Assembly: GCF_001263175.1 (NCBI RefSeq)
Contig: NZ_CP012332.1
Location: 428,001 to 492,000, forward strand
Origin: Vulgatibacter incomptus
GTDB lineage: Bacteria; Myxococcota; Myxococcia; Myxococcales; Vulgatibacteraceae
Length of the DNA stretch: 64,000 bases
Direction: 5' to 3'
How positions within the stretch are numbered: position 1 is the stretch's first letter; every line of letters starts with the position of its first letter. Below are positions 4,556 to 30,955 of the stretch, in pieces. A program made the translations under genes and the position numbers. Under the pieces are notes generated by a model. That model saw nothing but the letters and a program-made list of their open reading frames with translations, searched no databases and was not told where the DNA came from.

Positions 4556-4580
4556 GGAGCTCTTGTCACCCCGGCGGAGG

Positions 4581-5033: not shown

Positions 5034-5066
5034 TTTCGGCTACCTCGACAGGTGGATAAACGGCCA

Positions 5067-5098: not shown

Positions 5099-5104
5099 GG
5101 GGCG

Positions 5105-5134
5105 GCTCTTCGCCCGAGCGATCGGGCGAGGAGC
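5105..5134 (-). terminator. Hairpin in the rpsU-yqeY gap (proximal to rpsU)
   Basis: A 13-bp stem with one T.G wobble: 5105-5117 pairs with 5122-5134 around the GCGA loop at 5118-5121. It is the first of two tandem stems downstream of rpsU. No U-tract follows, so readthrough control or protection of the upstream rpsU message is as likely as full termination. Confidence 0.6.
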
Positions 5135-5181
5135 GAGGGGCGGCTCTCCCAGGAAGAAGTCCACGGGGAGCCGCGCGGGGA

Positions 5182-5379
5182 TCAGATCCCCGTCTTGCGG
5201 AGCTTCTTGAGAGCCCGCTTCTTGGCGGCGATCGCCTTCTTCTTCTTCTTCACGGAAGGCTTCTCGTAGTGCTCACGCTTGCGGATCTCGGAGAGGATTC
5301 CCGCCTTCTCGCACTGCTTCTTGAAGCGCTTCATCGCGTTCTCGAAGCTTTCGCCTTCCTTGACACGTACGCCCGGCAT
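5182..5379 (-). CDS. rpsU: 30S ribosomal protein S21 (bS21)
   Basis: Small, very basic ribosomal protein of 65 residues that sits on the 30S platform near the Shine-Dalgarno helix. The sequence begins [20 protein letters not shown], contains the family segment REHYEKPS, and ends in a Lys/Arg-rich tail ([19 protein letters not shown]). The ATG at 5377-5379 has GGGGAGG 8 nt upstream, which is clearly better than any upstream in-frame start. It is the first gene of the rpsU-yqeY-dnaG-rpoD operon, with a promoter about 125 bp upstream and two hairpins after its stop. Confidence 0.97.
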
Positions 5380-5504
5380 CCAGTTACACCTCCCCTCGTG
5401 CCATTCGGCCATGCGCCCGGTACCCGGATGCGCCTGGCACTCTGAATCGGTTGTTAATCTGCCGCCGGCGAAGCCGCCAGGGGATCGCCGGCCGGAAACC
5501 GGCG

Positions 5505-5532
5505 ACAATAAGGAAACCGAACGTCCTGTCAA
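5505..5532 (-). promoter_or_regulatory. Sigma-70 promoter for the rpsU operon
   Basis: On the minus strand a perfect TTGACA (5527-5532) is followed after 16 bp by TATTGT (5505-5510, 4 of 6 matches). The predicted start near 5498 gives a leader of about 115 nt before rpsU. It stands out in this GC-rich sequence and is correctly placed. Confidence 0.75.
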
Positions 5533-5586
5533 GCGCTGGATCTTCGCGAACGACCCGAAAGGGACGCGCTTAGGAAAACTTGGAGA

Positions 5587-6495
5587 TCACTCGAGCAGCG
5601 GTTGCGCGGAGAGCTTCCTCTCGCACTGGCGCAGCTCGTGGAGGAGCTCGAGGATCTGGGGGTCGTGGGGGACCTCGTCCGGCGCCTTCTTCTCTGCCTC
5701 GAGCTCGGACGGCCACCGCTCGTACTGATGCCGTGGCGGCTCGAGGTCGCGGACGTCGACCTCGATCGGCTTCTGCCGGCAGTCCTCGTCATCGGGGTGG
5801 TCGGCGCAGCGCCGCAGCCCCTGGAGCAGGCGAAGGGCGGAGGCGTCCTCGGCGTTCTCCACGTAGCCAAAGGTGTCCCTCTCCGCGGCGACTCTGCGCA
5901 GGTATTCCTGCCGGCGGACCAGGGCATCCCGCAGCGGGGCGCAGGCGTCGTCGGGAGCCGGGGCGGCCTCGATGTCGGGGTCGAGCGCTTCGTCGTCGGG
6001 GAGCTCGGCTTCGCTTTCGTTCCGCGAGGGCGCTGCCGGCTCACGGGGACGAGGCAGGGCGGCGGCGGGCTGCCCATCGTCGCCGTCGACCACGGAGGCG
6101 AACGATCCCTCCTCCTCCTCGCCCGGGAGAATGACCCGGACCTTCGCCATGAGGTCCGAGAGGGAGGGCTCGGGCCGCACGGCGTCGGGCCGGGCGTGCC
6201 CCTCCTCGGTCACCGCTGCGTCGATCCGGCCGTACTCCTCGGGTCGTCCTGAGAAGCCGGTCGCGTCCGCTGCGAGCACGGGCTTGGCGGGATCACGGAC
6301 GAGGAAGGACGGGAGCTCGTCCGGCGCCGGGAGCGGCGCGTCGCCCTTTTCCTGCTGCGCGGGCTTCGGCGGCGGCAGCGAAGGGCGGGCCTCCGGCTCG
6401 GGTGCGCTCGCGGGCTCCGGCGTCCGCGACTTGCATCCGGCTTCGAGGGCGACGCACGCGAGGGCGAGCGAGGCGATCAGGACTCCCGTGCGCAT
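5587..6495 (-). CDS. Hypothetical lipoprotein with Pro/Glu-rich linker
   Basis: A 302-residue protein with no recognised domain. It starts with a lipoprotein signal peptide (MRTGVLIASLALACVALEAGC), where the cysteine at 21 would be lipidated. A Pro/Glu/Ala-rich linker to about residue 65 follows. The middle is acidic and low in complexity. The C-terminal third is Arg/Glu-rich and helical, with four cysteines (for example DACAPLRDALVRRQEYL and LRRCADHPDDEDC) that could form disulfides in the periplasm. It lies 50 bp downstream of the HU/IHF gene on the same strand, so it may be cotranscribed with it. It ends just before the rpsU promoter. Function is unknown. Confidence 0.8.
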   Translation of the reverse strand: MRTGVLIASLALACVALEAGCKSRTPEPASAPEPEARPSLPPPKPAQQEKGDAPLPAPDELPSFLVRDPAKPVLAADATGFSGRPEEYGRIDAAVTEEGHARPDAVRPEPSLSDLMAKVRVILPGEEEEGSFASVVDGDDGQPAAALPRPREPAAPSRNESEAELPDDEALDPDIEAAPAPDDACAPLRDALVRRQEYLRRVAAERDTFGYVENAEDASALRLLQGLRRCADHPDDEDCRQKPIEVDVRDLEPPRHQYERWPSELEAEKKAPDEVPHDPQILELLHELRQCERKLSAQPLLE

Positions 6496-6545
6496 GAGGT
6501 CCTCTCCGCTCCGTCTCGGCGGTACGAGAGAGCGGCCGTCGGGAG

Positions 6546-6896
6546 CTACTCGTCGCCGTCCAGATCGTCGTCGTCGTCGTCGTCGTCCCGATCGAGGTCG
6601 GGCGGGAGCGGCTGGCCGGCGGTCCGGTTGACCCGATCGCGCAGCTCTTTGCCGGTCCGGAAGAGGATGCCCCGCTTCGGCTTCACCGGGATCACCTCGC
6701 CGGTCTTGGGATTCCGGCCCTGGTAGCCCTCGTAGTGCTTCACGTGGAAGGCGCCCAGGCCACGGATCTCGATGTTCTCGCCGCGGACGAGGGCCTCCGT
6801 CATGGAGTCGAAGATCGTCTCGACCGTCGCTTCGGCCTGCTTCTGGGTGATCCCCTTCTTCTGGACGAGGATGCCGATCAGGTCGGACTTCAACAT
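6546..6896 (-). CDS. HU/IHF family DNA-bending protein with acidic tail
   Basis: A 116-residue nucleoid protein that binds and bends DNA as a dimer. Family features are MLKSDLIGILVQKKGITQKQAE, the conserved RGLGAFHVKHYEGYQGRNP beta-arm region with a Pro at the arm tip, and KRGILFRTGKELRDRVN. The GxGxF and RNPxTGE pattern is closer to IHF-beta than to HU, but subunit identity is not certain. After residue about 95 it carries an extra tail ending in eight consecutive aspartates, which ordinary IHF lacks. The ATG at 6894-6896 has GAGG 7 nt upstream. A longer frame starting nine codons earlier has no ribosome site. Confidence 0.93.
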   Translation of the reverse strand: MLKSDLIGILVQKKGITQKQAEATVETIFDSMTEALVRGENIEIRGLGAFHVKHYEGYQGRNPKTGEVIPVKPKRGILFRTGKELRDRVNRTAGQPLPPDLDRDDDDDDDDLDGDE

Positions 6897-6963
6897 GCGG
6901 GACCTCTTCTGCCCGGGCCGCACAGGACGCCGGATTCGAAGGCGACGGCTGGGAAGTTGCTCA

Positions 6964-6991
6964 ACCTTATCAGAACGTTACCCGCTCGCAA
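6964..6991 (-). promoter_or_regulatory. Possible promoter for the HU/IHF gene
   Basis: On the minus strand TTGCGA (6986-6991) is followed after 16 bp by TAAGGT (6964-6969). It lies about 70 bp upstream of the HU/IHF start. The matches are 4 of 6 and 3 of 6, so this is only a candidate. Confidence 0.35.
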
Positions 6992-7012
6992 GGGGACGAA
7001 CGAAGGCATCGA

Positions 7013-8281
7013 TCACGAGAAGGTCGCGGAGGCCCGCAGGGTCTCGAGGTCCATGGAGAGGGAGTCGATGGACGCCGTGTCCGCCGTTCGCAGGACCTCG
7101 GCGAGACGGGCGCCCAGCGGGTCGGAGCGGCCTTCGATCGTGCCGCGCACCGCCTGTACGAGCTCGCCGACCTTGATCGAGGCCGGGGGGCGGCTCAGGC
7201 GCCAGGCGCGGTCTGCGTGCACGAGCAGGCCTGCACGCTGGAGGTCCCGGACGACGTCGCGGACCATCCCGTCCGCGAAGTCGATGCGGAGCGCGAGCCT
7301 CTCGAGGCTGCCGTTGAACTCGCCCTCGGCGCATGCCAGGGCCGTGCGGATCGCGCAGAGCTCCTGGGCGCGCGCCGCGGCCCTGGGGTCCGATTCGAGC
7401 CGCAGGAGCTCGGGGTGCTGGAAGGCGAAGGCGATCCGCGCGCCGAAGAGGACGATCAGCCAGGAGACGTAGATCCAGAGCAGGAAGATCGGCAGGGCGG
7501 CGAGGGGGCCGTAGACCGCGTCCGACCGGATCGCGTGGACGACGTAGGTGGCGTAGCCGTACTTGGCGAGCTCCCAGACGGAGGCGGCGAGCAGCCCGCC
7601 TACGAGGGCGGCGCGCCTCTTCACCTTGGCTGCCGGCGCGATCTTGTAGAGGAGGACGAAGCCGCCCGCGGACAGCGCCAAGGGGATCAGCGGGAAGAGG
7701 TGCCGCAGAGGGCCTTCGCCGAAGTAGGTCGCCCAGCCCTTGATCGCGGCGGTCGCGGCGAGGGAGAGGCCGAGGACGATCGGACCGGCGACGAGCAGGC
7801 CCAGATAGAGCGCGATCTGCTTCGCGATGGGGCGCATGCGGCCCAGGCCCCAGAGGTCGTCGAAGGCCTTCTCGATGTTGCGGAGCAGGAGGATCGCCGA
7901 GAGGGTGAGGAGGAAGACGCCGATCCCTCCCGTCATCATCCCCTTGCCCGCGTTGCGCACGAGCTGATCGAGGTGCTCCACGACCTCCTCGCGGACGCCC
8001 ACCGCGAGGTTCTCGAACACGAAGGCCCGCACCTGTCGGCGCAGGTCGAAGAGCCCGAGGGCCGCCAGGCCGAAGAGGCCGACGGCCAGAAGCGGCACGA
8101 GCGAGACGATCGAGAGGTAGGTGAGCGCGGCCGCGCGGAGGAGGATCCGCTCGGCGCCGAAGCCCCGCAGCCAGCGGAGCTTGCGGCGGGTGGCATCGCT
8201 GCCGAGCCAGGTCGTGAGCGACCCGCGCTTGGCGGGTACCTCGACGGCCGTGGTCTCCTCGGGGCGCGCTCCCTCCTGCAT
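7013..8281 (-). CDS. YihY/UPF0761 family inner-membrane protein
   Basis: A 422-residue polytopic membrane protein of the YihY family, once misnamed RNase BN; the biochemical role is unknown. About six transmembrane segments lie between residues 50 and 310, including LTYLSIVSLVPLLAVGLFGL, IGVFLLTLSAILLLRNIEKA and LPIFLLWIYVSWLIVLFGA. The cytoplasmic C-terminal domain of about 110 residues resembles a winged-helix fold, as in longer members. The ATG (8279-8281) lies one base after the TAG stop of the RNase E/G gene, so translation is probably coupled. A longer frame running into the RNase gene encodes only Ala/Lys repeats antiparallel to coding and was discarded. Confidence 0.92.
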   Translation of the reverse strand: MQEGARPEETTAVEVPAKRGSLTTWLGSDATRRKLRWLRGFGAERILLRAAALTYLSIVSLVPLLAVGLFGLAALGLFDLRRQVRAFVFENLAVGVREEVVEHLDQLVRNAGKGMMTGGIGVFLLTLSAILLLRNIEKAFDDLWGLGRMRPIAKQIALYLGLLVAGPIVLGLSLAATAAIKGWATYFGEGPLRHLFPLIPLALSAGGFVLLYKIAPAAKVKRRAALVGGLLAASVWELAKYGYATYVVHAIRSDAVYGPLAALPIFLLWIYVSWLIVLFGARIAFAFQHPELLRLESDPRAAARAQELCAIRTALACAEGEFNGSLERLALRIDFADGMVRDVVRDLQRAGLLVHADRAWRLSRPPASIKVGELVQAVRGTIEGRSDPLGARLAEVLRTADTASIDSLSMDLETLRASATFS

Positions 8282-8282
8282 C

Positions 8283-10346
8283 CTAGGCCTCGCCGGAGCC
8301 GCTCTCGACGGGCTCGGGAACACGGCTCGACGCAGCGGTTGCCGCCTTGGGCTCATCGGCCGAAGGAGGCTCTGCGCGGACCTCGGCGGCCCGCGGCTCA
8401 CTCGCACGGTCCTCGGCATCGCGAGCTTCGCCGGCTCGACCTTCCGCGGCGCGGCGCTCACCACCGCGGCCTTCACCGCCGCGGCCTTCGCCGCCGCGGC
8501 CTTCGCCGCCGCGGCCTTCGCCGCCGCGGCCTTCGCCGCGCTGCCCGCCGCCCCGGGCCTGGCGCTCACCGCCGCGGCCCTCACGGCGCTCGCCGCGCTT
8601 CTCTTCCTTCTTCTCCTCGCGCTTCTCTTCCTTCTTCTCCTCGCGGCGCGGCTGGGCCTGCTGCTGCGCAGCCTTGGCCTCCTTCTTCTCCTGCCGGCCG
8701 TAGAGGTCGAACTGCTCGAGGTGGTAGTGCTGCTGCGCCTTCACCTGGATGGTCTTGTTGTACTTGTCCATCATGAAGCGCAGGGTGTCCCGCTCTTCGC
8801 CCTGGATCGTACGCGCCACCTCGGGGTGGCAGTTGATCGCGATCGTCGGCTCGCGGAACGCCGACACCTCGCGGCGCAGCTCGCGGAAGATCTCGTGGGC
8901 GACCGTGATGCGGCTCTTCACCGCGCCGCGCCCCTCGCAGTACGGGCAGGGCTCGGTCAGCATCCGGCCGATGGACTCGCGCACTCGCTTGCGCGTCATC
9001 TCCACGAGGCCGAGCTCGGAGATCTTGAGGACGTTCGTCTTCGCCTTGTCGCGGCCGAGAGCCTCCTGCAAGGCCTTGAAGACCTTGTCCCGGTTCTGGC
9101 TCTTATCCATGTCGATGAAGTCGATGATGATGATTCCACCGATGTTCCGCAGGCGGAGCTGGTAGACGACCTCCTTCGCCGCCTCGATGTTGATCTTGGT
9201 GATCGTCTCCTCGAGGGACTGCTTCCCCACGTAGCGGCCGGAGTTGACGTCGATGGCGGTGAGCGCCTCCGCCTGGTCGATGATCAGGTAGCCGCCGCTC
9301 TTCAGCCAGACCTTGCGCTGCTGGGCCCGCTGGAGCTCGTGCTCGATGCCATAGGCGTCGAAGATCGGCTCGCTCTCCTGGTAGTGCTCCACGTGGGAGG
9401 CGAGGGCCGGATCCGTCGCCTGGACGAAGCGCATGATCCGCTCGTACTCGGCGCGATCGTCGATCACGAGCTTCTCCACGTCGGCGGAGAAGAGATCGCG
9501 CGTGGCGCGGAGGACGATGTCGAGGTCCGGATGGAGCAGGGCGGGGGCGCCGGTCTTGTCCTTCTTCCGGCCGATCTCGGTCCAGATGTGGATCAGGAAG
9601 CGCGCGTCGGCCTGGAGCTTCTCCGCGGGGACGCCGTCGGCGACCGTGCGGACGATGAAGCCGGTCCCGGGCGGGCGAAGGGCGTCGACCGTCTCCCGGA
9701 GGCGGCGGCGCTCCTTCTCGTTCTCGATCCGCCGCGAGATCCCCACGTGGTCCACCGTGGGCATGAACACGAGGTGCCGGCCGGGGATGGAGATGTGCGA
9801 GGTGATCCGGGCGCCCTTGGTCCCGATGGGATCCTTGGCGACCTGGACGATGACCTCCTGGCCCTCCTTGAGGAGGTCCTGGATGTTCACCTCCTTGTGG
9901 GGCTTCTCCTTCTTCTCCTTGTGGGGAGCGGCCTTCGCCTTGCGGGCCTCCTCCTTCTTGCCTTCGGCGGCGGTGGCCTCCTTGGCCTCTCCGTCTCCCT
10001 CTTCCTCACCTTCCTCCTCGCCCCGGGCGAGCATCGCCGCGGCGTACTCGTCGGGGACGCCCTCGGACTCAGGGTGCTCGCCCTCGGTGAGCTCGAACTG
10101 GCGCTCGGAGAAGTCGGGGTCGTAGTAGACGTCGGAGACGTAGAGGAACGCGGCCTTGTCCAGGCCGATGTCCACGAAGGCCGCCTGCATGCCGGGGAGC
10201 ACCCGGACCACGCGGCCCTTGTAGATGTTGCCCACGATCCCCTTGTCTGCGTTGCGCTCGAGGTAGAACTCGGAGATCTGTCCGTTTTCGACGAGTGCGA
10301 CTCTGGATTCGGAGCCCGTGGCGTTGATCACCAGGGAGGAAGACAT
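8283..10346 (-). CDS. rng: Ribonuclease E/G family endoribonuclease
   Basis: A 687-residue RNA-processing endonuclease. The S1 domain begins at about residue 35 and is interrupted by a charged insert (80-152, first Glu-rich, then Lys-rich). Catalytic core motifs are AIDVNSGRYVGKQSLEETI and IIIIDFIDM, followed by the zinc-link motif CPYCEGRG. Residues from about 553 onward form a disordered tail of KEEKREEK and then five GEGRG-type repeats, resembling the RNA- and partner-binding tails of RNase E. Core length suits RNase G, whereas the tail is RNase E-like. The ATG at 10344-10346 gives the family start MSSSLVINATGSESRVALVENG, with a modest AAGG site. It is coupled to yihY downstream. Confidence 0.95.
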   Translation of the reverse strand: MSSSLVINATGSESRVALVENGQISEFYLERNADKGIVGNIYKGRVVRVLPGMQAAFVDIGLDKAAFLYVSDVYYDPDFSERQFELTEGEHPESEGVPDEYAAAMLARGEEEGEEEGDGEAKEATAAEGKKEEARKAKAAPHKEKKEKPHKEVNIQDLLKEGQEVIVQVAKDPIGTKGARITSHISIPGRHLVFMPTVDHVGISRRIENEKERRRLRETVDALRPPGTGFIVRTVADGVPAEKLQADARFLIHIWTEIGRKKDKTGAPALLHPDLDIVLRATRDLFSADVEKLVIDDRAEYERIMRFVQATDPALASHVEHYQESEPIFDAYGIEHELQRAQQRKVWLKSGGYLIIDQAEALTAIDVNSGRYVGKQSLEETITKINIEAAKEVVYQLRLRNIGGIIIIDFIDMDKSQNRDKVFKALQEALGRDKAKTNVLKISELGLVEMTRKRVRESIGRMLTEPCPYCEGRGAVKSRITVAHEIFRELRREVSAFREPTIAINCHPEVARTIQGEERDTLRFMMDKYNKTIQVKAQQHYHLEQFDLYGRQEKKEAKAAQQQAQPRREEKKEEKREEKKEEKRGERREGRGGERQARGGGQRGEGRGGEGRGGEGRGGEGRGGEGRGGERRAAEGRAGEARDAEDRASEPRAAEVRAEPPSADEPKAATAASSRVPEPVESGSGEA
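8465..8539 (-). repeat. Five 15-bp tandem units inside the RNase E/G tail
   Basis: The unit is CGCGGCCTTCGCCGC on the plus strand, repeated about five times from 8465. On the coding strand it encodes GEGRG repeats in the disordered C-terminal tail. Units are nearly identical at DNA level, suggesting recent slippage. Confidence 0.85.
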
Positions 10347-10904
10347 TGGAGTGCCTTTGCGCACGCCGCCAAGCGGCGCGCCAAGGGCGCCATCGAAGGC
10401 TCCACGGGGCCGGGGACACTCGCTTCTCCGCCGCAATCGGGCGACGACGAGTGGGAGACGGGCGTCGGGGTAGGGGCGTTACGCAACCCTCGAAGTCGTC
10501 ACGGCCGAAGGGGCGCCCCCATCGAGGGGTGACGCGGATCCCGTCGGCCTGGGCTCCCGTGCGACCTCCGGCAGCGTCCGGAGGTTTTGCGGCCCGAGGG
10601 CCGCGGGAAAGATGAGCAGGGGGCGCCCCGCCCCCCACGAAAAAGCCTCTCTGCCTGGAGGAAGGGCCGTTCAGGCCGCTCCCCGCGGCGAAATCGAAGA
10701 CTGCTCGGCCAAGACCTCAGGCCGTGTCGCCCGGGAGACGGGTCGGCGTCGAACGCCGGCCCACTTTGGCCTCGGGCATACTCGGAGTCGAATCTGCCCC
10801 AGGAGCGGGGCCGGGGCAACCGAAACTTTGGGCACACCCCGCCTTTCCGGGGACGCCCGCCAGCCAGGGCAGCAAGGGAGCTCTCTACCCTCCGGAAGCC
10901 GCGC
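10347..10904. other. 558-bp gap upstream of the RNase E/G gene
   Basis: No convincing gene lies here. It holds several strong stems, including ACCTCCGG/CCGGAGGT at 10564-10585 followed by TTT on the plus strand, and GCGGCCC/GGGCCGC at 10589-10604. It is the leader region of the RNase E/G gene and the trailer of the DUF2203 gene. Conserved motifs of RNase P RNA, tmRNA, SRP RNA and 6S RNA were looked for and not found. It could be a long structured 5' UTR. Confidence 0.5.
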
Positions 10905-11336
10905 TCAGTTCACGTAGGCGCGCTGGAACGAGGCAGGGCGCAGGATGGCCTGTCGGCCCTCGAAGTCATCGTCGAGCTCGTGCCAATGATCGACGGCCGG
11001 CTCGCCAAAGGACCAGCAGAGCATCACCTGCCTGTCGCCCCGGCGGGAGGGGAAGTCGACGAGGCCGTCGCCCCGCTTCACGACCACTCCGACCTCGGTG
11101 AGGTTGTCGATGGCCTCCTGAATCTTCGACAGGAGGTGATCGCGGCGGAGCCTCAGCCGCCGATGCCCGTCCGCGAGGTCTTCGGGGATCGGGGTCCCGG
11201 GCAGGGAGCGATCTCCCTGCTGGGACAGGAGCATGCCCGCGCGGGCGAGCTCCATGGAGCGGAACCGGATCCGCTCGAAGGTCTGCTGGAGGAAGGGCAC
11301 CATCCGGTTCGCTTCCTCGATCGAGAAGTAGCGCAT
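10905..11336 (-). CDS. DUF2203 family protein
   Basis: A 143-residue protein of a widespread, uncharacterised family. The N-terminal MRYFSIEEANRMVPFLQQ resembles the usual family start (F-T-x-E-E-A-N-x-x-x-P-x-L). The middle is an Arg-rich helical hairpin, and the C-terminal end has the family's GxVDFPSRRGDRQVMLCWSFGE and WHELDDDFEGRQ motifs. Both GTG (11337-11339) and ATG (11334-11336) are possible starts; AAGG 6 nt before the ATG favours the ATG. The putative promoter would start transcription almost at the start codon. Confidence 0.88.
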   Translation of the reverse strand: MRYFSIEEANRMVPFLQQTFERIRFRSMELARAGMLLSQQGDRSLPGTPIPEDLADGHRRLRLRRDHLLSKIQEAIDNLTEVGVVVKRGDGLVDFPSRRGDRQVMLCWSFGEPAVDHWHELDDDFEGRQAILRPASFQRAYVN

Positions 11337-11345
11337 CACCTACCT

Positions 11346-11373
11346 TCGATAACGCAGGACCAGAGCAGGTCAA
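11346..11373 (-). promoter_or_regulatory. Putative promoter for the DUF2203 gene
   Basis: On the minus strand TTGACC (11368-11373) is followed after 16 bp by TATCGA (11346-11351). The predicted start near 11339 coincides with the GTG/ATG start codons, implying a leaderless or nearly leaderless transcript if it is used. Confidence 0.45.
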
Positions 11374-11556
11374 GGCCTTCACACGCTCGAGCGGGGCTTC
11401 CGACATTGACCTTCCGCGGAGGGTTGGGGACACTGCCGGGCTCGAAATCGATTTGGCGTGCCCAAGCGGAACGGCGTCTCCCGTCGGAGGTGCCCTCTCG
11501 CTTGCGCGCGACGGTGCGTGCGGAAGTCCCGCTTTCGCTGCAGGAAGGGATCGGAA

Positions 11557-13479
11557 ATGGGGACGTCGACGCGGCGGATGATGGTGCTCGCCCTGTTGCT
11601 CTCGGCGTGGGGCTGCAGCCAGGATCGCGTTCAGGAAGTCGAGAATCCGGGCGGCTCTGGAGGGTCTGGCGGTACCGGCGGTTCGGGAGGGACCGACGTG
11701 GTCGACCACGGGCCGCCGGGCACCTGCGAGAACCCCCGTGCGATCGATGCCGCGGTGGCCGAGGTCGGAGTCGGGGCGGTCGCGGGCTCGGTGGAGAACG
11801 CGATCGCGGACCACGACGGAGGCTGCGGCCAGGAGGGCCCGGCCCAGGTCTACCGCTTCACCTCGCTGCGCCGCGGGACGCTCTCGCTCACCCTGGCCGC
11901 GGAGCGCGGCTTCGTCGTCTCCGCCCGCCGGGCCTGTGAAGACGCGGAGAGCGAGATCCTCTGCCTGCCGGAGGAGCTGGCCTCGGATCCGATCGAGCTG
12001 GCAAAGGGCGAGGCGCTCTTCCTGATCGTGGGCGCGAAGGAGAAGCGGGCGGATCCGACGTACGAGCTTCGTCTCGCGTTCACGCCCATCCTCGCCGAGG
12101 GCGAGGCCTGCGGGAAGGACGGCGTGAACGGGGTCTGCGAACCCGGCCTGTTCTGCCGCCCGTCGGAGGGGCGATGCAGGGCCAACGTCCCGCCCCGGCT
12201 CGACTCGGCGGAGGCCTTGATGCGCGGGAGCGGACAGTACCGGTTCCAGGTCGACGGCACGGATCCCGAGGGCCATGTGGCCGGCCTCTACTTCCGCCTG
12301 AAGGACGCGGACGGGAACCCGGTGGCCCTCTCGGGTCTTTACGAGTTGTATACGAACATTTCACCGACTTCGGAGCCCGGCAGCCCGGCGTTCTCGGCGA
12401 TCTTCGCGGGGAGCGTCAACCTCCCGAAGGCGGCCAGGTCGGTGGAGCTCGAGGTGGTCGACACCGGCAGGGCGAGAAGCAACACCCTCTCGGTGGAGCT
12501 GAACGCGCCGACCGTCGTCTCGGAGGGCGAGGCCTGCGATCTCAAGGGCTGGAAGCCCGTGTGCGAGACCGGTCTGGTCTGCCCGCCTATCTCGGCGAAC
12601 CCCACCTGCGAGACGAACGTCCCGCCCGAGATCGTATCGGGCCGCGCGCTGCGCACGGTGGCGGGCAGCCTGATCCTCGTCCTCGACGGGCGCGACGAGA
12701 ACGGGGACGCCACGCAGTACTTCGGCCGCTTCCTGAATGAGAACGGCACGCCGGTTCCGGCCTTCCGGCGTGGGGCCACCGAGGGGACGGGCAACTTCGA
12801 GGCGAGCCCCTCTGGCTCGCGGGATTTTCACTCCGTCGCGGTCTGGCGGGGCTTCTTCTCCAGCTATCCCAACGTGGTGAAGGCGCAGGTCGCGCTCGTC
12901 GACTCCGGCGGGAACCGGAGCGAGCTCGTGGACCTCGAGATCGAGCCGCGCCCGATCGCCGAGCTGGGCGAAGCCTGCGATCTCGGCCTCTTCGAGATCG
13001 CGTGTGCGGAGGGGCTGCTCTGTGGGCCGAGCCCGAGCGGCGAGGGCCGCTGCATGGAGATCGAGTCGGCGCGGGTCGCGAAGTGCGAGGCGGCTCCCGA
13101 GATCCGCCCGGGTGGACGGGCGATCCTCAGCTCGGCCGGCGCGAGCCATTGGGATCCGCCCGTCGAGTGCAGCTTCTATGGGCAGAGCGCCCTGGGCGCG
13201 CCGGAAGCCGCCGCGCGGCTGGTGCTCGACGCGCCGGCTTCGGAGCTGACGATCACCACCGACCTGCCCGGAACCTGGGAGGACAACACCGTCGTCTTCC
13301 TCCTCCCGGGCTGCGGCGAGGACGCCGAGGCCGTCGTCGCCTGCGAGGACGCCTGGAAGGAGTTCGACTTCGTCCGGACGACGCTGGTCGCCAAGGACGT
13401 CCCGGCCGGGCGCTACCTGATCCTGGTCGACACGCCCACCGGGATGGGTCCGGTCGAGATCGGGGTCAGCGCCCGCTAG
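11557..13479 (+). CDS. Large surface lipoprotein with three Cys-rich modules
   Basis: A 640-residue exported protein of unknown function, of the kind common in myxobacteria. Signal sequence MGTSTRRMMVLALLLSAWGC ends in a probable lipidation cysteine, followed by a short GGSGGTGGSGG linker. Three modules begin GEAC and carry spaced cysteines (GEACGKDGVNGVCEPGLFC, GEACDLKGWKPVCETGLVC, GEACDLGLFEIACAEGLLC). Each of the first two is followed by NVPP and an immunoglobulin-like beta stretch. The C-terminal part (about 540-640) resembles a bacterial pre-peptidase-type beta domain (ITTDLPGTWEDNTVVFLLPGC). The ATG at 11557 has AGGAAGGG upstream and is preferred over an in-frame ATG 33 codons earlier, which precedes no signal peptide. 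Confidence 0.88.
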   Translation: MGTSTRRMMVLALLLSAWGCSQDRVQEVENPGGSGGSGGTGGSGGTDVVDHGPPGTCENPRAIDAAVAEVGVGAVAGSVENAIADHDGGCGQEGPAQVYRFTSLRRGTLSLTLAAERGFVVSARRACEDAESEILCLPEELASDPIELAKGEALFLIVGAKEKRADPTYELRLAFTPILAEGEACGKDGVNGVCEPGLFCRPSEGRCRANVPPRLDSAEALMRGSGQYRFQVDGTDPEGHVAGLYFRLKDADGNPVALSGLYELYTNISPTSEPGSPAFSAIFAGSVNLPKAARSVELEVVDTGRARSNTLSVELNAPTVVSEGEACDLKGWKPVCETGLVCPPISANPTCETNVPPEIVSGRALRTVAGSLILVLDGRDENGDATQYFGRFLNENGTPVPAFRRGATEGTGNFEASPSGSRDFHSVAVWRGFFSSYPNVVKAQVALVDSGGNRSELVDLEIEPRPIAELGEACDLGLFEIACAEGLLCGPSPSGEGRCMEIESARVAKCEAAPEIRPGGRAILSSAGASHWDPPVECSFYGQSALGAPEAAARLVLDAPASELTITTDLPGTWEDNTVVFLLPGCGEDAEAVVACEDAWKEFDFVRTTLVAKDVPAGRYLILVDTPTGMGPVEIGVSAR

Positions 13480-13482
13480 AGT

Positions 13483-14940
13483 TCAGGGTCCGTCGTAGAC
13501 CCCGACGCCCGAGCTGGTGCCGATGATCACGCGCCTCGGCGAGTGGGACCGGTCGATCGTGACGCTGAGGATCGCGCCGGGCAGGCCATTGAGGCCGTCG
13601 ATCACACTGGCGAAGTGACCGCCTCGCCAGCGCGCGAGGGCGGCGTCGGTGGCCATCCAGATGCTGCCGTCCGGATCCAGCGCGAGGCCGTAGACGCGGT
13701 TGTCGGGGAGGCCCTGGGCGGTGGTGAGGTAGCTCCAGGTCCCGTCGCCCGCCCTGTGGGCGACGCCGTTGCCGAAGCTCGCCGCCCAGAGGCCGGTTCC
13801 GCCGTCGGTGATCAGGTCCATCACGAAGTCGTCGCCGCCGGGGTCGAGCGCGATGCCGTCGGGCCAGATGTCGACGATGGGGTCGAGAGTGGCCCAGAAC
13901 TGCCCGAGATGCCAGCCCTCGTCGGCGTAGTGGATCAGGCCGCTGCGCGCGTCGCCGCCGATCCAGACGTTGCCGTCGGGGGCGATGGCGAGGCCGCGGA
14001 AGTCGCCGACCCATAGGCTGCCGCCTTTGTCGGTCGCCGCATGCTGGTGCTCCTGCACGATCCCGAAGGCCTGGCTCCACATGGCGACGCCGTGGTTGCA
14101 GCCGAACCAGACGTCGCCCGCGTATTCGCCGGTGAGGACGGGGAGGATCCGGTAGCAGGTCCGCAGCAGGTGGCGGCCGTTCGGGTACTCCGCTGCCGGG
14201 GGCGTGAAGATGTCGAAGTGGGTGCGGTCGACGCGGCGGCCGTTCACGACGATCCGGTCGACGCCGCCGCTGCTTGCGATCTCGGGGGGATCGTTGAGGG
14301 GATCGCTGCTGGGGAAGAGGCCCCGGTAGCCGACGTAGACCTCGTTGGCGCGGCCGCCTGCCACCGAGATCGGGGGATAGGGAGTGAGGCCGTCGGCAGC
14401 GGTGAAGGACTCCCAGGCCGATCCGCCCGACCGGAGGAGGAGGAGCGCCGCGCCGTTCGCGGCCCAGATATTTCCCGCCTGATCGGCGGCGACGCCCCAC
14501 ACGGGCCCGGGGGCCCCGTTCGCTGCTGCCCAGAAGTGGAGGTGGTTGCGGACGTCCGGGTCGGGCGGCGGGCCACCTGTCCCGCCGGGACCGACCCCTC
14601 CGCCGACACCTCCGGCGCCGGGTCCGCCGCTCCCGCCCTGGCCGCCAGACGTTCCCGCGACGCCGCCCGTGCCGCCTCCGATGCTGCCCCCGGTGCCGCC
14701 TCCGACGCTGCCGCCGGTGCCGCCGCCGATGCTGCCGCCCGTACCGCCGCCGATGTTTCCGCCAGCGCCGCCGCCGTTGCCGCCCGTGCCGCCGGGCGCT
14801 CCCGCGGTTCCGCCCGAGCCGGCGCTCTGCAGCGGAGGGTCGTTCGTCGGATCGTGGTGGCACGCTGTAAGCGCCAGCGCAGTCGTCAGCGCCACGCCGA
14901 CCCGAACGAAGGCAATCGGGCTCGCTCCACCTTCCCTCAT
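13483..14940 (-). CDS. Lipoprotein with Gly-rich linker and beta-propeller repeats
   Basis: A 485-residue exported protein. The signal peptide ends LALTACHH (lipobox LTAC). A low-complexity linker of GGTGGSIGGG-type repeats covers about residues 45-110. The remainder has beta-propeller blades like those of two-component-regulator sensor propellers, for example GLPDNRVYGLALDPDGSIWM and GLAIAPDGNVWIGGDARSGL. No catalytic motif is seen; a surface binding or sensing role is an inference. The ATG at 14938-14940 was chosen because it starts the signal peptide and has GGAG about 9 nt upstream. The frame stays open well upstream, but that part is antisense-like sequence over the UspA gene. It converges with the lipoprotein at 11557, leaving a 3-bp gap. 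Confidence 0.88.
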   Translation of the reverse strand: MREGGASPIAFVRVGVALTTALALTACHHDPTNDPPLQSAGSGGTAGAPGGTGGNGGGAGGNIGGGTGGSIGGGTGGSVGGGTGGSIGGGTGGVAGTSGGQGGSGGPGAGGVGGGVGPGGTGGPPPDPDVRNHLHFWAAANGAPGPVWGVAADQAGNIWAANGAALLLLRSGGSAWESFTAADGLTPYPPISVAGGRANEVYVGYRGLFPSSDPLNDPPEIASSGGVDRIVVNGRRVDRTHFDIFTPPAAEYPNGRHLLRTCYRILPVLTGEYAGDVWFGCNHGVAMWSQAFGIVQEHQHAATDKGGSLWVGDFRGLAIAPDGNVWIGGDARSGLIHYADEGWHLGQFWATLDPIVDIWPDGIALDPGGDDFVMDLITDGGTGLWAASFGNGVAHRAGDGTWSYLTTAQGLPDNRVYGLALDPDGSIWMATDAALARWRGGHFASVIDGLNGLPGAILSVTIDRSHSPRRVIIGTSSGVGVYDGP

Positions 14941-15125
14941 GGCGTCTGCTCCATGCTCGCCCACGCGCTCCCGGGGCGTCGATTCGGCTGGACGGACCGC
15001 TCGTCGGAGGCTCGGGGGGAGAGGCGCGTGGGCGCCGAACCCACGCTCGCCCGCCTCCTGCCCGTCCAAGGTAAGGAGCTTTCGCCGAGGCGAAGCGGCC
15101 GGGGGCGCTCCAATGGGGAGACGAC

Positions 15126-15221
15126 GCGTGTGAAGAAATCGGCCCCGCATCAGCGGGCCCGACTTCTTCAGCTCGCGCTTCGCGCGAGAGCGCTCCTTTT
15201 CGTTTGCTCGCCTCCGGCTCA
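15126..15221 (-). repeat. Dispersed hairpin repeat, copy 1 (abuts uspA-like stop)
   Basis: Read on the minus strand it begins at the TGA of the UspA-family gene. It contains the conserved A-rich linker (AGCAAACGAAAAGGAGCG), hairpin 2 (CTCGCGC/GCGCGAG, 15172-15188) and hairpin 3 (15131-15148 with 15153-15170, 18-bp arms, loop ATCA). Hairpin 1 of the longer copies is missing. Confidence 0.9.
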
Positions 15222-16067
15222 GCGTACGATCAGCACCGGGCAGGGCGCTCGGGACGCGAGGTGGCTGGACACGCTCCCGAGGAAGAAGCGGCGCGCCGGC
15301 GAGTGCCCCCGGGAGCCCACGACCAGCAGGTCGATGTTCCACTCCTCCGCGCGCTCGCTCAGCCGGTGGGCGGCGTGTCCCAGATCGAAGGTCGCGGAGG
15401 AAACCTCGGCGCCGGCCTTCATGGCGAGCTCGCGGGCGGCGCAGAGGTCGGCGAGGTTCTCCTTGCCGACGACCTCTTCGACGTCCTCGGAGTCGAGCTC
15501 GATCCCCTCGGGAGGTAGCGGCCAGGGAGGAGGGACGATCGATTCGATCCGCAGCGCGCCGTCCGACCGAGCGGCGAGGTACGCGGCCACCTTCACCGCT
15601 TCGCGCGAACAGTCCGAGCCGTCGAAGCCGACGAGGATGCGGGCGAGGCGGGGGCCGCTGCTCACGCCGGAGGGCACCACGACCACCGACCTCTCTGCCT
15701 GCCGGACGACCTTCATCGAGACGGAGCCGAGCTTCAGGCCGCGCCGCGCGCTCCCGAGGCAGAGGATGTCGGCGCTCGACTCCTCGCCGTAGCCGACGAT
15801 CGACTCCGCGACGGGGCCGTCGAGCTCGACGCGATGGGCGATCGGCGCGACCGAGCCGATCGCGGCCTGGGCCGAGGCGAGGTTCTGCTTGCACTGCTGG
15901 CGAGCCGCCTCGCGGTCGCCGCCGGTGAAGAGACGGTGCGCGACCGGCTCCACCACGCAGATCAGGTCGATGGTGCCCTTCGCCGCTGCGGCGATGTGGG
16001 CGCCCACCAGGCTGGCGTGGAAGGACGAGGTGGAGCCGTCGACCGCGGCCACCACGTGCTCGAACAT
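15219..16067 (-). CDS. Universal stress protein, tandem UspA domains
   Basis: A 282-residue cytoplasmic protein made of two UspA domains (about 1-140 and 145-282). The first begins MFEHVVAAVDGSTSSFHASL, the second RILVGFDGSDCSREAVKVAA. The second ends with the nucleotide-binding signature VVGSRGHSPARRFFLGSVS and PCPVLIVR; the first has the weaker CLGSARRGLKLGSVS. This suggests the C-terminal domain is the better ATP binder. Members act in stress resilience, with precise roles varying. The stop codon is directly followed by a copy of the dispersed hairpin repeat. It is divergent from the DHH phosphoesterase, 155 bp away. Confidence 0.93.
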   Translation of the reverse strand: MFEHVVAAVDGSTSSFHASLVGAHIAAAAKGTIDLICVVEPVAHRLFTGGDREAARQQCKQNLASAQAAIGSVAPIAHRVELDGPVAESIVGYGEESSADILCLGSARRGLKLGSVSMKVVRQAERSVVVVPSGVSSGPRLARILVGFDGSDCSREAVKVAAYLAARSDGALRIESIVPPPWPLPPEGIELDSEDVEEVVGKENLADLCAARELAMKAGAEVSSATFDLGHAAHRLSERAEEWNIDLLVVGSRGHSPARRFFLGSVSSHLASRAPCPVLIVR

Positions 16068-21538: not shown

Positions 21539-23353
21539 GTGAGCGTTCGCAGCTTTTCGATCGCGTGGGTGATCCTGGCCCTCGCCACCGCCGGTTGCGG
21601 CGGCTGCAGGAGCAAGGAAGCGGCCCAGGAGGCGACGGCCGCGGCCTTCCTCCCCGCGCGCCCGTCATCGGCGATCCTCGTCCCCGACCCGGCGAAGCTG
21701 GGCGAGACGGTGAAGGCGCTGGAGCAGACCCGCCTCGCCGGCCTCGCGGCGACGACGGTCCTGGGCGCCCGAGACGCGGGGGATCTCCTCCGCCCGATCA
21801 CCCGCCAGCTCGGCTTCGATCCGCGGGAGCCGGGCGGCTTCGAGAAGACGGGGATCGACGGGCGCAAGGGCATCGCCTTCGGCGATGACGTCCTCGTGAT
21901 CGGCGTCACGGATCGGGATCGCTTCGATCCCTACGTCGCTGCGCTCGCGAAGCGCCTCGGCGGCGAGACCCGGGGCAAGGAAACCTGGACCGGGACCCAG
22001 GAGGCGCCCGCCAACGTGGAGGTGACCACCTTCACCGACGCCTCCGGCAAGGTGCAGGTCGCGCTCGGCGTGAAGGACGGCTTCGCCGTGATCGGCAGCG
22101 GCGGGAGCGCGGTGGAGAAGGTGGGCGCCTCGCTCTCGCGGCCCAGGTCCCTCTCCCTCGACGCGAACCCCGCGTTCCGGAAGCTGCTCGGCCGCCTCGG
22201 CGAGCGCGACGTCTACGGCTGGCTCCCCGAGGGAATGGGCGCGGGACGGAACCGCCGCCTCGAGAAGGGCGCCGCCTTCGGCCTCCGCGCCGGGACCGGC
22301 GGCCTGAACGCGAGGGTGATCGCGTCGCAGGGAGCGCTGCAGCTCGCGATGATCCTGCCGATCGGCAAGCAGGCGGGGGCCGGGCTCGTTCCGCTCCTCC
22401 CGCCCGACGATCTGCTGGTGGTGCGGCTCGGCGGGGATCCCGTCGCCCTCTCGCCGGTGCTCGACTCGCTGCTGCCGCGCGGCCTCTCGAGGGCGCTGGT
22501 CGCGGCGGGGATCGATCCGACCACGGAGATCCTGAGCCAGCTCCAGCCGGGGATCGCGCTTGGCCTGGAGCTGAACCCCGCGATCGACCTCTCCGGCGGG
22601 ATCCCCACCGATCCCTCGATCTCCTCCACCAACCCCTTCCGCTTCGTGAGGGCGATGATGGTCGCCCGCGTGAAGGATCCGGCGAAGGCGGCGGAGGTCC
22701 TCGGGAAGCTCGCGACGGGCGCCGAGCGCTTCCGCATGCAGATCGCCTCGGAGGAGAAGGACGGCGTGAAGATCTACCGCGCCACCTACGCCGCCGGCGA
22801 AGGCATGACGTGGGGGCTCGTGGGCGACACGCTCCTCGCGACGGGAGGCGGCGAGGAGATGTTCCAGAAGGGACTCGCGCGGGTGAGAGCTCGTGATGAA
22901 ATCACGGGCTCTCGCGGAGCCGACGGCGGAGCAGACAAAAAGAAGAGCGGTTCCGCGCGGCGCGCGGCTGAAGAAGTCGGGCCCGCTTCTGCGGGGCCGA
23001 TTTCTTCAAACGCTCTGCGGGCTTCTTCGTCCGGCGCAGAGAAGGCGGCGGGAGCGGCGAAGGCCGAGAACGTGGCGGCTCGGGCGGACGGAAAGGCCGA
23101 CGGCTTCGCGATCGCCGAGCCCGGCGCCCGGCAGCTCTTCGACTCCGCGGGCTCGGCGGCCCACCTCGACGTAGCACGCCTCGCGGCCTCGCTCCGGGCC
23201 ATCCCGCAGTCGGCCTTCGGCGTCGGCGGCTTCCGGATGAAGGAGCTCTTCCAGACCTGGGTCGATCTGCTCGACGAGGTGAAGGGCGTGACCGCGGCGC
23301 TGTCCATCGACGAGGACGGCGTGATCGTCGACATGGACGTGGGCCTCAAGTGA
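21539..23353 (+). CDS. Lipoprotein carrying an in-frame dispersed repeat
   Basis: A 604-residue exported protein, possibly of the DUF3352 type, with no firm family assignment. Signal peptide MSVRSFSIAWVILALATAGC ends in a lipobox. The body is an alternation of beta and alpha elements with repeated SSAILVPDPAKL- and DPAKAAEVLGKL-like segments. At about residues 450-495 the reading frame passes through a copy of the dispersed hairpin repeat and encodes SGSARRAAEEVGPASAGPIS, a low-complexity insert followed by an Ala/Lys linker. It starts at GTG with GGAG 5 nt upstream. It is followed after 7 bp by an ABC ATPase and permease, so it may serve that transporter. Confidence 0.85.
   Translation: MSVRSFSIAWVILALATAGCGGCRSKEAAQEATAAAFLPARPSSAILVPDPAKLGETVKALEQTRLAGLAATTVLGARDAGDLLRPITRQLGFDPREPGGFEKTGIDGRKGIAFGDDVLVIGVTDRDRFDPYVAALAKRLGGETRGKETWTGTQEAPANVEVTTFTDASGKVQVALGVKDGFAVIGSGGSAVEKVGASLSRPRSLSLDANPAFRKLLGRLGERDVYGWLPEGMGAGRNRRLEKGAAFGLRAGTGGLNARVIASQGALQLAMILPIGKQAGAGLVPLLPPDDLLVVRLGGDPVALSPVLDSLLPRGLSRALVAAGIDPTTEILSQLQPGIALGLELNPAIDLSGGIPTDPSISSTNPFRFVRAMMVARVKDPAKAAEVLGKLATGAERFRMQIASEEKDGVKIYRATYAAGEGMTWGLVGDTLLATGGGEEMFQKGLARVRARDEITGSRGADGGADKKKSGSARRAAEEVGPASAGPISSNALRASSSGAEKAAGAAKAENVAARADGKADGFAIAEPGARQLFDSAGSAAHLDVARLAASLRAIPQSAFGVGGFRMKELFQTWVDLLDEVKGVTAALSIDEDGVIVDMDVGLK
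22884..23018 (+). repeat. Dispersed hairpin repeat, copy 2 (inside a coding sequence)
   Basis: Complete copy in the plus orientation. Hairpin 1 is GAGAGCTCGTGAT/ATCACGGGCTCTC (22885-22913), hairpin 2 CCGCGC/GCGCGG (22953-22967), and hairpin 3 22969-22986 with 22991-23008 (loop TTCT). The TGA that forms a stop codon in intergenic copies is out of frame here, so the host lipoprotein frame reads through. Confidence 0.92.
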
Positions 23354-23360
23354 GCTTCCC

Positions 23361-24053
23361 GTGATTCGCCTCGAGAGCCTGACCAAGAGCTACCGCGACG
23401 GCGGGAACCGCTTCGACGTGTTGCGAGGCGTCTCACTCGGTGTGGAGGAGGGCGAGCTCGTGGCGGTGATGGGCGCCTCCGGCTCGGGGAAGTCGACGCT
23501 GCTCAACGTGATCGGCGGCCTCGACCGGGACTACGGCGGCAGCGCCGAGGTCCTGGGCCGCGACCTCTCGAAGCTCGGCGATCGCGAGCTCTCCCGCTAC
23601 CGTAACGAGAGCGTCGGCTTCGTCTTCCAGTCGTTCAACCTCGTGCCCCCGCTGACGGTGCTGCAGAACGTGCTCCTGCCGGGCTACTTCGAGGGCGGAG
23701 GCGGGCAGCCTGCCGCCGCGGCGCGATCGTCGGCGCGAGACGCCCTCGCGCGCGTGGGCCTCGCCGGCAAGGAGGGGCGGCTGCCCGCCCGGCTCTCCGG
23801 CGGCGAGCGGCAGCGGGTGGCCCTGGCGCGGGCGCTCTTTCGCCGACCGCGCCTCGTGCTCGCGGACGAGCCGACGGGCTCCCTCGACGCGCAGACCGCC
23901 CGGGACGTGATCGACCTGCTGGTCGAGCTGAACGTGAAGGAGCGTCTCACCGTCGTGGTGGTGACCCACGACGAGCAGGTCGCGTCGAGGGCCCGCCGGA
24001 TCCTGCGGCTGAAGGACGGCCTCCTAGTGGACGATCGGGAGCACGCGCGATGA
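23361..24053 (+). CDS. ABC transporter ATP-binding protein (LolD/MacB type)
   Basis: A 230-residue ATPase. Walker A is GASGSGKST, the signature motif is LSGGERQRVALARAL, and Walker B is RLVLADEPTGSLDAQTA, followed by the switch histidine in VVVTHDEQ. The FVFQSFNLVPPLTVLQNV segment is typical of the LolD/MacB/FtsE subgroup. It starts at GTG 7 bp after the upstream lipoprotein gene and overlaps the permease by ATGA. It probably drives extraction or export of a lipoprotein or small molecule rather than import. Confidence 0.95.
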   Translation: MIRLESLTKSYRDGGNRFDVLRGVSLGVEEGELVAVMGASGSGKSTLLNVIGGLDRDYGGSAEVLGRDLSKLGDRELSRYRNESVGFVFQSFNLVPPLTVLQNVLLPGYFEGGGGQPAAAARSSARDALARVGLAGKEGRLPARLSGGERQRVALARALFRRPRLVLADEPTGSLDAQTARDVIDLLVELNVKERLTVVVVTHDEQVASRARRILRLKDGLLVDDREHAR

Positions 24054-25333
24054 GCGCTGGACGCTGGCTGCAGCTCGTCCTGGTGAACCTGGGCCGGGAG
24101 CTCCGCAGCAACCTGCTCTCCGTCTTCGGCGTCGCCGCGGGCATCGGCTCCCTGGTCTTCTTCGTGGCGCTCGGCCTGGGCGTCGGCGAGGTGGTGAAGA
24201 CCCGGCTCTTCCCCGCGGACGCGCGCTTCGTGGAGGTGATCCCGCCGCGGGTCTCCGTGGGGATCTTTGGCGGCGCCAAGCTGGACGACGCGGCGGTGGA
24301 GAGGCTGCGGGCGCTCCCCGACGTCGAGGCGGGCTACCGGAAGATGACGCTCCGGATCCCGGCGATCAGCCGCTACGACGGGAGCTTCTTCGGCCAGCGC
24401 CTGCGGATGGGGCTGGAGATCCTGGCGGAAGGGGTCGATGGCGGCCTGATCGAGGCCGATCTTACACCGGGTGTCCGATTCGATGACCCGGAGGGAGACG
24501 AGCCGATCCCGGCGCTGGTCTCCACCCGGCTGCTCGAGATCTACAACAAGAGCTTCGCGCGGATGCGCGGCCTCCCATCGCTCTCGCCGCCGATGCTGCG
24601 GGGCTTCGAGTTCCCGGTGGAGCTCGGCCGATCCTACGTGACGGCCCAGGCGGCAGCCGGAACGCCGCTGCGCGCCCAGGCGCGGCTCGCCGGGATCTCG
24701 GAGCGCGCGATGCTCCAGGGGATCACCATCCCCCTCGAGACCGCCAGGCGGCTGAACGCCCGCTACGGCGAGGACGCCCGCGGCTACTCGGCGCTGGTGC
24801 TGGTCGCGCGCACGCCCGATCGAGTGCCCGCGGTCGCACAGGCGGTGCGGGATCTGGGCTTCGAGATCGACGACTCCGAGCGCGTCCTCGCCGAGAGGGT
24901 CGGCGCCGCGGTGGCGATCACCACCGCCGCCCTCGCGCTGCTCTCGCTGCTCATCTGCGGCCTGTCGGCGGTGAACATCTCCCTCTCGGCAGGGGCGGCC
25001 GTCCGCACCCGCACGCGGGAGATCGGCGTCCTGCGGGCGGTCGGCGCCACGGCCGGCGACGTCCGCCGCCTCTTCCTCGGCGAGGCGGCGTTCATCGGTC
25101 TCGCGGGAGGCGTGGCGGGCGGCGGGCTCGCGTGGGCCGTCGCCATCGGCGTCGACCGGGCCGCCCGCTCGTGGCTGCCGGACTTCCCGTTCAAGCCCGA
25201 TTCGTTCTTCGCGTTCCCCGGCTGGCTCCTCGCCGGCGCAGTCGCCGCCGGCGTGGCCGCGGCCCTACTCGGGGCGTTCGTCCCGGCCCACCGGGCGTCG
25301 AAGCTCGATCCCGCCCGGGCCATCGGAGGCTGA
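24050..25333 (+). CDS. ABC transporter permease (MacB/FtsX/LolC type)
   Basis: A 427-residue permease. One transmembrane helix lies near the N-terminus (SNLLSVFGVAAGIGSLVFFV), followed by a periplasmic domain of about 240 residues. Three C-terminal helices begin at about residue 290, including VAITTAALALLSLLICGLSA. The FtsX-domain signature TREIGVLRAVGATAGDVRRL is present. It pairs with the ATPase just upstream (ATGA overlap). Its TGA stop is the first codon of dispersed repeat copy 3, so the 3' UTR is that element. Confidence 0.94.
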   Translation: MSAGRWLQLVLVNLGRELRSNLLSVFGVAAGIGSLVFFVALGLGVGEVVKTRLFPADARFVEVIPPRVSVGIFGGAKLDDAAVERLRALPDVEAGYRKMTLRIPAISRYDGSFFGQRLRMGLEILAEGVDGGLIEADLTPGVRFDDPEGDEPIPALVSTRLLEIYNKSFARMRGLPSLSPPMLRGFEFPVELGRSYVTAQAAAGTPLRAQARLAGISERAMLQGITIPLETARRLNARYGEDARGYSALVLVARTPDRVPAVAQAVRDLGFEIDDSERVLAERVGAAVAITTAALALLSLLICGLSAVNISLSAGAAVRTRTREIGVLRAVGATAGDVRRLFLGEAAFIGLAGGVAGGGLAWAVAIGVDRAARSWLPDFPFKPDSFFAFPGWLLAGAVAAGVAAALLGAFVPAHRASKLDPARAIGG

Positions 25334-25463
25334 GAGCTTGTGAAGAATTCACAAGCTCTCTCGAAGCCGGAGGCGAAGCAGACGAAAAGAAGAGCGTTTC
25401 CGCGCGGAGCGCGGCTGAAGAAGTCGGGCCCGCTTCTGCGGGGCCGACTTCTTCACACGCTCC
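25332..25463 (+). repeat. Dispersed hairpin repeat, copy 3 (abuts permease stop)
   Basis: Full copy. Hairpin 1 GAGAGCTTGTGAA/TTCACAAGCTCTC (25332-25360) is a perfect 13-bp stem beginning inside the permease TGA. The linker GCAGACGAAAAGAAGAGCG follows, then hairpin 2 (CCGCGC/GCGCGG) and hairpin 3 (25416-25455, 18-bp arms with one mismatch, loop TTCT). Confidence 0.93.
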
Positions 25464-25574
25464 GGACGATTCCCATGTTCATGGGCGCGACCTCGGAGTT
25501 TTGCCCAGGGCCATCGGGGTCCTGCCCAAGTTCTTCGGAGCAGATGCCGGAGAAGCGGGTTAGCATGGAGGCAA

Positions 25575-30078: not shown

Positions 30079-30837
30079 ATGCTCACCGCCTATCTCCTCG
30101 CGATCGCCGTCGGCGCGATGTTGACCGCAGCCGTCCCGGTCGCCTTCCCGCGCCTCCAGTCGCGGATGCACCTCTTCCTCTCCTTCTCCGCCGGCGTGAT
30201 GCTCGGCGCGGCCTTCTTCCACATGCTCCCGGAGGCGGTCGAGTCGGGGGGGCTCGAGTCGCTCTACTGGTCGCTCGGCGGCTTCGTCTTCCTCTTCCTC
30301 CTCGAGCGCTACGTCCTCGTGCACTGGTGCAAGGAGGACGACGAGTGCGAAGTTCACTCTCCGCAGCACGAGCATTCACACGGAAAGACGGTGGGGACCG
30401 CGGCCTTCGTGGGGATGTCCCTCCACACCCTCACCGACGGCTTCGCCCTCGGCACTGCGATCGAGGCGGGGATCGGCGCGAGCGTCTTCCTCGCGATCCT
30501 CTTCCACAAGCTGCCGTCCAGCTTCTCGCTCGCCGCGATCCTGATGAGCGAGCGGAAGACGGCAGGCCGCACGGTCGCCTACACCACCGTCTTCGCGGCG
30601 ATGCTCCCGCTGGGGGCGCTGCTTTACCTGGCCCTCGCCGGCGTGGTCCCCCACGAGGTCTTCGGCGCGAGGGCCCTGGGCTTCTCGGCGGGCACGTTCC
30701 TCCACCTCGCCGTGGCGGATCTCATCCCCGACCTGCACCGCCGGCGTCAGGATCGCCTCGCCCTCTCCATCGCGCTGATCGTCGGGATCGTGCTGATGTG
30801 GGCGGTGGGCCACTTCGGGCCGGCACACCAGCACTGA
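30079..30837 (+). CDS. ZIP family metal transporter
   Basis: A 252-residue membrane protein that probably moves zinc or a related divalent metal. Eight hydrophobic segments can be drawn. The metal-site helix IV has MSLHTLTDGFALG (family HNxxDG) and helix V FHKLPSSFSLA (family HExPE/HKxPE). A cytoplasmic His-rich loop (PQHEHSHGKT) lies between helices III and IV, and the C-terminus ends GPAHQH. The second metal site is less canonical (KLPSS in place of E-x-P-E). It is 8 bp downstream of the Fis-type gene, and its TGA is followed at once by a dispersed repeat copy. Confidence 0.92.
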   Translation: MLTAYLLAIAVGAMLTAAVPVAFPRLQSRMHLFLSFSAGVMLGAAFFHMLPEAVESGGLESLYWSLGGFVFLFLLERYVLVHWCKEDDECEVHSPQHEHSHGKTVGTAAFVGMSLHTLTDGFALGTAIEAGIGASVFLAILFHKLPSSFSLAAILMSERKTAGRTVAYTTVFAAMLPLGALLYLALAGVVPHEVFGARALGFSAGTFLHLAVADLIPDLHRRRQDRLALSIALIVGIVLMWAVGHFGPAHQH

Positions 30838-30955
30838 TCCGCGTCGGCGGAGCCGAAGGCGGAGCAAACAAGAAGTGGAGCGTCGTCCGCGCGAAGCGCG
30901 GCTGAAGGAAACGGGCCCGCTCCTGGCGGGGCCGGTTCCTTCATACGCTCCGCGG
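30838..30955 (+). repeat. Dispersed hairpin repeat, copy 4 (abuts ZIP stop)
   Basis: Short copy starting directly after the ZIP TGA. It has the linker (GGAGCAAACAAGAAGTGGAG), hairpin 2 (CCGCGC/GCGCGG) and hairpin 3 TGAAGGAAACGGGCCCGC (30903-30920) with 30926-30943. The arms differ from other copies by paired changes. Hairpin 1 is absent. Confidence 0.88.

Follow-up and report, generated by a model that had tools for sequence, protein, structure and literature searches.

A palindromic repeat of Vulgatibacter incomptus that normally lies at the ends of genes has very probably been inserted into the middle of a gene for a predicted lipoprotein-like protein, where it is read through in frame, and at least five other genes of this genome would have received it in the same way. 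Protein-coding palindromes have previously been described mainly in intracellular bacteria and in REP-rich genomes. V. incomptus is a soil bacterium of the myxobacterial order with a GC-rich genome, which is complete in a single contig of 4,350,553 bases (4.35 Mb). The stretch of 64,000 nucleotides that was analysed (genome positions 428001-492000) is referred to as the window.

Anatomy, distribution and placement of the repeat

The repeat is about 135 bp long and hairpin-rich, with three hairpins, and is present in about 115 copies in the 4.35-Mb genome. A blastn search of the repeat against its own genome returned 50 matching pieces, and a covariance model of the family (R1), which was built from 19 copies, gave 135 matches at E ≤ 0.01. 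The copies that were analysed with their flanks are the best 116 of these 135 matches (at least 54 bits) and represent 114 distinct copies, as two pairs are duplicates from the contig ends. The copies at these ends (L103, genome positions 2828-13517, and L188, 4336988-4347677) have equal scores and equal spacing (5328 and 10885; 4339488 and 4345045), which suggests that the two ends of the contig duplicate each other, possibly as an untrimmed overlap of a circular chromosome.

The consensus consists of a 5' hairpin, H1 (TGAGAGYTYGTGAAG..TTCACRARCTCTCG), a linker (GCGRAGCCGRAGGCGGAGCARACGAAAAGAAGAGCG), a small hairpin, H2 (CCGCGCGGAGCGCGG), and a long hairpin, H3 (TGAAGAARTCGGGCCCGC-loop-GCGGGACCGATTTCTTCA), followed by CGCTC, which closes a stem with GAGCG. 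Among the copies both sides have changed in 8 of the 45 pairs, and compensatory pairs are found in H1 and H3. By inspection, the ends of the consensus match each other as inverted repeats at 17 of 20 positions, but H1 is itself palindromic. Many copies do not have H1 and begin at the linker. In a composite sub-type, part of the repeat linker (GGAGCAGACGAAAAGA..GCGTTTCCGCGCA) stands in tandem before the core (loci L130, L143, L148, L161 and others, e.g. at genome positions 1528881, 2147707 and 2261163).

As far as tested, the family appears to be restricted to this lineage. No copy was found by blastn in 59 relatives, and R1 gave no match in 38 of 39 relatives and one weak match of 33 bits in the other. 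The exact pattern of the conserved linker was not found in 84,980 species genomes, a set that possibly does not include the V. incomptus genome and in which diverged relatives of the repeat could escape such a pattern; the exact linker patterns were not found in viral contigs either, and Rfam had no match in the window. Flank similarity, examined for target-site duplication, was equal to that of shuffled pairs. Direct repeats of 5 bp (GCGGG at the copy at 22884-23018, and others at a few copies) were considered as duplications and rejected, as they are no commoner than in shuffled flank pairs, and the 3-bp TGA/TGA repeat at the stop-codon copies is indistinguishable from the element's own ends. 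The tetranucleotides GTAG and CGTC are absent from the consensus and from the ends of the 114 copies. An origin from a RAYT/IS200 element was rejected as well: none of the three Y1_Tnp loci (PF01797) in the genome is flanked by copies of the family, and R1 gave just two weak matches near them (13.5 and 8 bits).

The placement of the repeat was examined relative to upstream genes that were called by a codon-usage score trained on the window. A sense gene lies upstream of 41 copies with H1, and in 33 of these cases its stop codon overlaps the beginning of H1 (29 copies plus four with H1 offset by two to four bases). All 33 overlapping stops are TGA, compared to 62% TGA among the well-scoring genes of the genome. 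The copies without H1 are mostly located within tens of bases of a stop. The original prediction held that the element is normally found at gene 3' ends, and the placement turned out to be more exact than it had stated. An acyl-CoA dehydrogenase upstream of one copy has a complete C-terminal domain (at 643 of 644 residues), and the value for a LolD-like ATPase upstream of another is 313 of 314; the examined upstream proteins thus end at their native ends and are not truncated by the element. The following copies in the window are located at gene ends:

25331-25465, + strand: full-length, on the TGA stop of the FtsX-like permease gene 24050-25333
45624-45755, - strand: full-length, on the TGA stop of an upstream sense gene
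61528-61660, + strand: full-length, on the TGA stop of an upstream sense gene
30820-30953, + strand: copy without H1, beginning shortly after a TGA stop
15121-15237, - strand: copy without H1, adjoining a TGA stop

The copy inside the lipoprotein-like gene

A full copy that keeps the reading frame open had been predicted at 22884-23018, and R1 located it at exactly these coordinates with 155.6 bits. The open reading frame of the host gene continues for 604 codons, straight through the copy. The features of this region are:

21539-23353, + strand: host gene, predicted lipoprotein-like protein of 604 aa, GTG start, TGA stop (from the open reading frame and orthologues)
22884-23018, + strand: full 135-bp repeat copy in the peptide frame, host residues 449-494 (R1 model positions 1-135)
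22883-22915, + strand: 5' hairpin H1 (GTGAGAGCTCGTGAT/ATCACGGGCTCTCGC), which carries the TGA in stop-codon copies (from the fold and compensatory pairs)
22953-22967, + strand: small hairpin H2 (CCGCGCGGCGCGCGG) (from the consensus structure)
22969-23008, + strand: long hairpin H3 (TGAAGAAGTCGGGCCCGC..GCGGGGCCGATTTCTTCA) (from the fold and the consensus structure)
23019-23086, + strand: Ala/Lys-rich linker directly 3' of the element, absent from all orthologues

The element-encoded peptide in the host protein is RARDEITGSRGADGGADKKKSGSARRAAEEVGPASAGPISSNAL, which includes the SGSARRAAEEVGPASAGPIS that had been read from it originally. The TGA, an in-frame stop in most copies, was said to be shifted out of frame here, and it lies one base off (G-TGA, read as GTG AGA). 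This copy folds 8.4 s.d. below dinucleotide shuffles. The codon score inside the element is -0.50, compared to +0.65 and +0.73 on its two sides, and GC3 is 0.56 in the element and 0.91 for the host gene. By these measures the element is foreign and unadapted, and the gene is otherwise normal. The host protein has no family match in Pfam or NCBIfam, and an assignment of its function by fold was rejected because the best solved fold (TP0453, E 2e-4, partial model, TM 0.43 by target) is too weak.

Orthologues of the host gene are present in 45 of the 59 relatives. The inserted residues are missing in all 29 orthologues with which the protein was aligned, so that the orthologues without the repeat also do not have the peptide, as expected from the original prediction. 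The nearest orthologue, from the same family, is 41% identical and has 542 aa rather than 604, and downstream of the insert (query residues 514-599) the identity to the same-family orthologue is 44%. Relative to this nearest relative the insert comprises 62-67 aa, of which the element contributes 45 and the linker about 20. The Ala/Lys linker that had been noticed after the element is thus present, but it is an extra segment of about 20 aa that lies outside the repeat and that the orthologues do not have either. The whole insert exceeds the element by about 20 aa, so that a second event must be assumed for the linker. It was also considered as part of a second repeat, and this was rejected because no convincing repeat of it was found in the 595 kb of the V. 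incomptus genome that were searched. None of the relatives compared is very close with an empty site, and the insertion point is therefore known to a few residues and not to the base.

In the structure model, host residues 470-501 have a pLDDT below 50 and lie between confident regions or domains. The model supports a loop formed by the inserted residues, as had been proposed, even though low confidence is expected there anyway for a segment without alignment rows.

Other intragenic copies and alternative explanations

A scan of all fetched copies (the best 116 of 135) determined that six genes are read through the repeat in one frame. All six intragenic copies are read in the same peptide frame, and each adds about 40-45 aa to its protein. 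The five copies in addition to the one at 22884-23018 are:

56969-57089 of the window, - strand: second intragenic copy of the window, in the lipoprotein-like gene 56292-57464 (-), 77.5 bits
Genome position 2133391: copy in an apolipoprotein N-acyltransferase (Lnt)
Genome position 2211371: copy in an intein within DnaE
Genome position 1528881: copy in an alpha/beta hydrolase
Genome position 2297999: copy in a UvrD-like helicase

Orthologues show matching gaps at the element in five of the genes, namely 21539-23353 and four of the five others (all but the intein). In 11 orthologues of Lnt, 43 aa are missing at the element, and in one genome 0 nt separate the aligned halves. There are likewise 0 nt between the aligned halves in one orthologue of the UvrD-like helicase, and the orthologues of the alpha/beta hydrolase show a gap that matches the element. 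About 44 aa are missing from the same-family relative of the second lipoprotein-like gene, which is the only clearly matching one. The DnaE intein (L145:1-4173, genome 2208871-2213999) has an N-terminal splicing motif at 553-631, a C-terminal one at 943-964 and a LAGLIDADG match, and the repeat copy sits within the intein.

An open peptide frame is present in 73 of 107 copies, most of which are non-genic, and in the copies with H1 the remaining sense frames are mostly closed. The openness of the frame is thus a property of the element and not a sign of selection on the protein, and an open peptide frame is not remarkable by itself. This bears on the idea that the intragenic peptide was co-opted for a function (e.g. 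as a flexible or a binding segment) and is maintained by selection, not merely tolerated. The preservation of the frame in six genes, the Ala/Lys-rich linker beside the copy at 22884-23018 and the recurrence of REP-decorated helicases and DNA polymerases in other species (PMC3733652) are consistent with co-option. The same frame is open in most non-genic copies, however, the codon usage of the copy is unadapted and the segment is predicted without confident structure, and we regard co-option as improbable.

It is very unlikely that the host gene is a pseudogene or that the frame is an assembly error, in which case there would be no fused protein. The genome is a single complete contig, the coding score is high on both sides of the element, and there are parallel cases, one of them in Lnt, a conserved enzyme. 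The original prediction would have failed had the gene been a pseudogene; its 604-aa frame is intact and the similarity to the same-family orthologue resumes after the insert at the 44% identity given above. The opposite history, in which such a gene gave rise to the family from one of its coding segments, the repeat later reached gene ends, and the insert is ancestral and was lost elsewhere, has the shared frame in its favor and nothing else. None of 29 orthologues in the order carries the insert, four unrelated genes have the same pattern of presence and absence, and the codon usage of the element is unlike that of the gene, which makes an ancestral insert next to incredible.

Insertion of the repeat into an existing gene is the preferred explanation. 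The palindromic repeat would have inserted into the middle of the gene at 21539-23353, and with a net insertion that is a multiple of three and entry of the gene into the commonly open sense frame of the element, the ribosome would read through. In the host protein, 45 element residues and about 20 linker residues would then form an unstructured loop that separates two conserved regions. The protein with the insert is probably made and working, and the insert is probably neutral. At least five more genes would have undergone the same event, each time in the identical frame, with the survivors being those tolerated by the protein. The element itself is probably mobile but non-autonomous and would strongly prefer gene ends as insertion sites, apparently the TGA stop, and intragenic copies would survive only with entry into the open frame, a net length that is a multiple of three and a site in a tolerant loop. 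A more specific proposal is that the mobile element targets native TGA stops in sense orientation, where its insertion is normally harmless, and that the intragenic copies are rare off-target insertions tolerated by means of the one open 45-codon frame; we offer this tentatively, as a possibility that is more doubtful than probable.

Relation to known palindromic elements

Rickettsia palindromic elements (RPEs), as well as the protein-coding palindromes of Wolbachia and Methanocaldococcus, have been reviewed (PMC10969869, PMC2996958). RPEs are palindromes of 100-150 bp that are found between genes and in frame in unrelated genes, where they encode a conserved peptide and their hosts are apparently functional (PMC10969869, PMC2996958). 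The V. incomptus repeat is likewise a palindromic element of this size range with many copies, located between genes and in frame inside several unrelated genes whose orthologues do not have it. It differs in its host, which is a GC-rich member of the myxobacterial order and not an AT-rich intracellular bacterium, in the exact docking of most copies on TGA stops, and in its intragenic share of about 5% of copies compared to nearly half of the RPEs (PMC10969869). The likeness to RPEs drawn in the original prediction seems to hold for behaviour, and not as common descent.

The GTAG/CGTC REPs and BIMEs are hairpins at gene 3' ends that sometimes provide the stop (TAG for GTAG REPs), and some REPs lie wholly within open reading frames, including those of UvrD/REP helicases and DnaE (PMC3733652). 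The V. incomptus repeat is also found at gene 3' ends, supplies stops and occurs in a UvrD-like helicase and in DnaE. However, it is 135 bp long with three hairpins instead of 20-40 bp, uses TGA instead of TAG, does not have the GTAG/CGTC tag and has no RAYT gene beside it, the three Y1_Tnp loci being without copies. Bacterial MITEs such as ERIC and RU-1 are short and of high copy number, and some of their open reading frames are fused in frame to genes (PMC2759123). The V. incomptus repeat shares these properties, and its ends may be inverted repeats (17/20 by inspection, with H1 itself a palindrome), but it has no target-site duplication above chance, and no parent IS was found.

The repeat is a new, apparently lineage-restricted family of an already known type, with exact docking on TGA stops as its unusual trait. 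This docking on native stops suggests a testable targeting rule. The six genes provide clean before-and-after comparisons in a GC-rich genome of the myxobacterial order, and they are a good system for asking how proteins accept 40-odd unselected residues.
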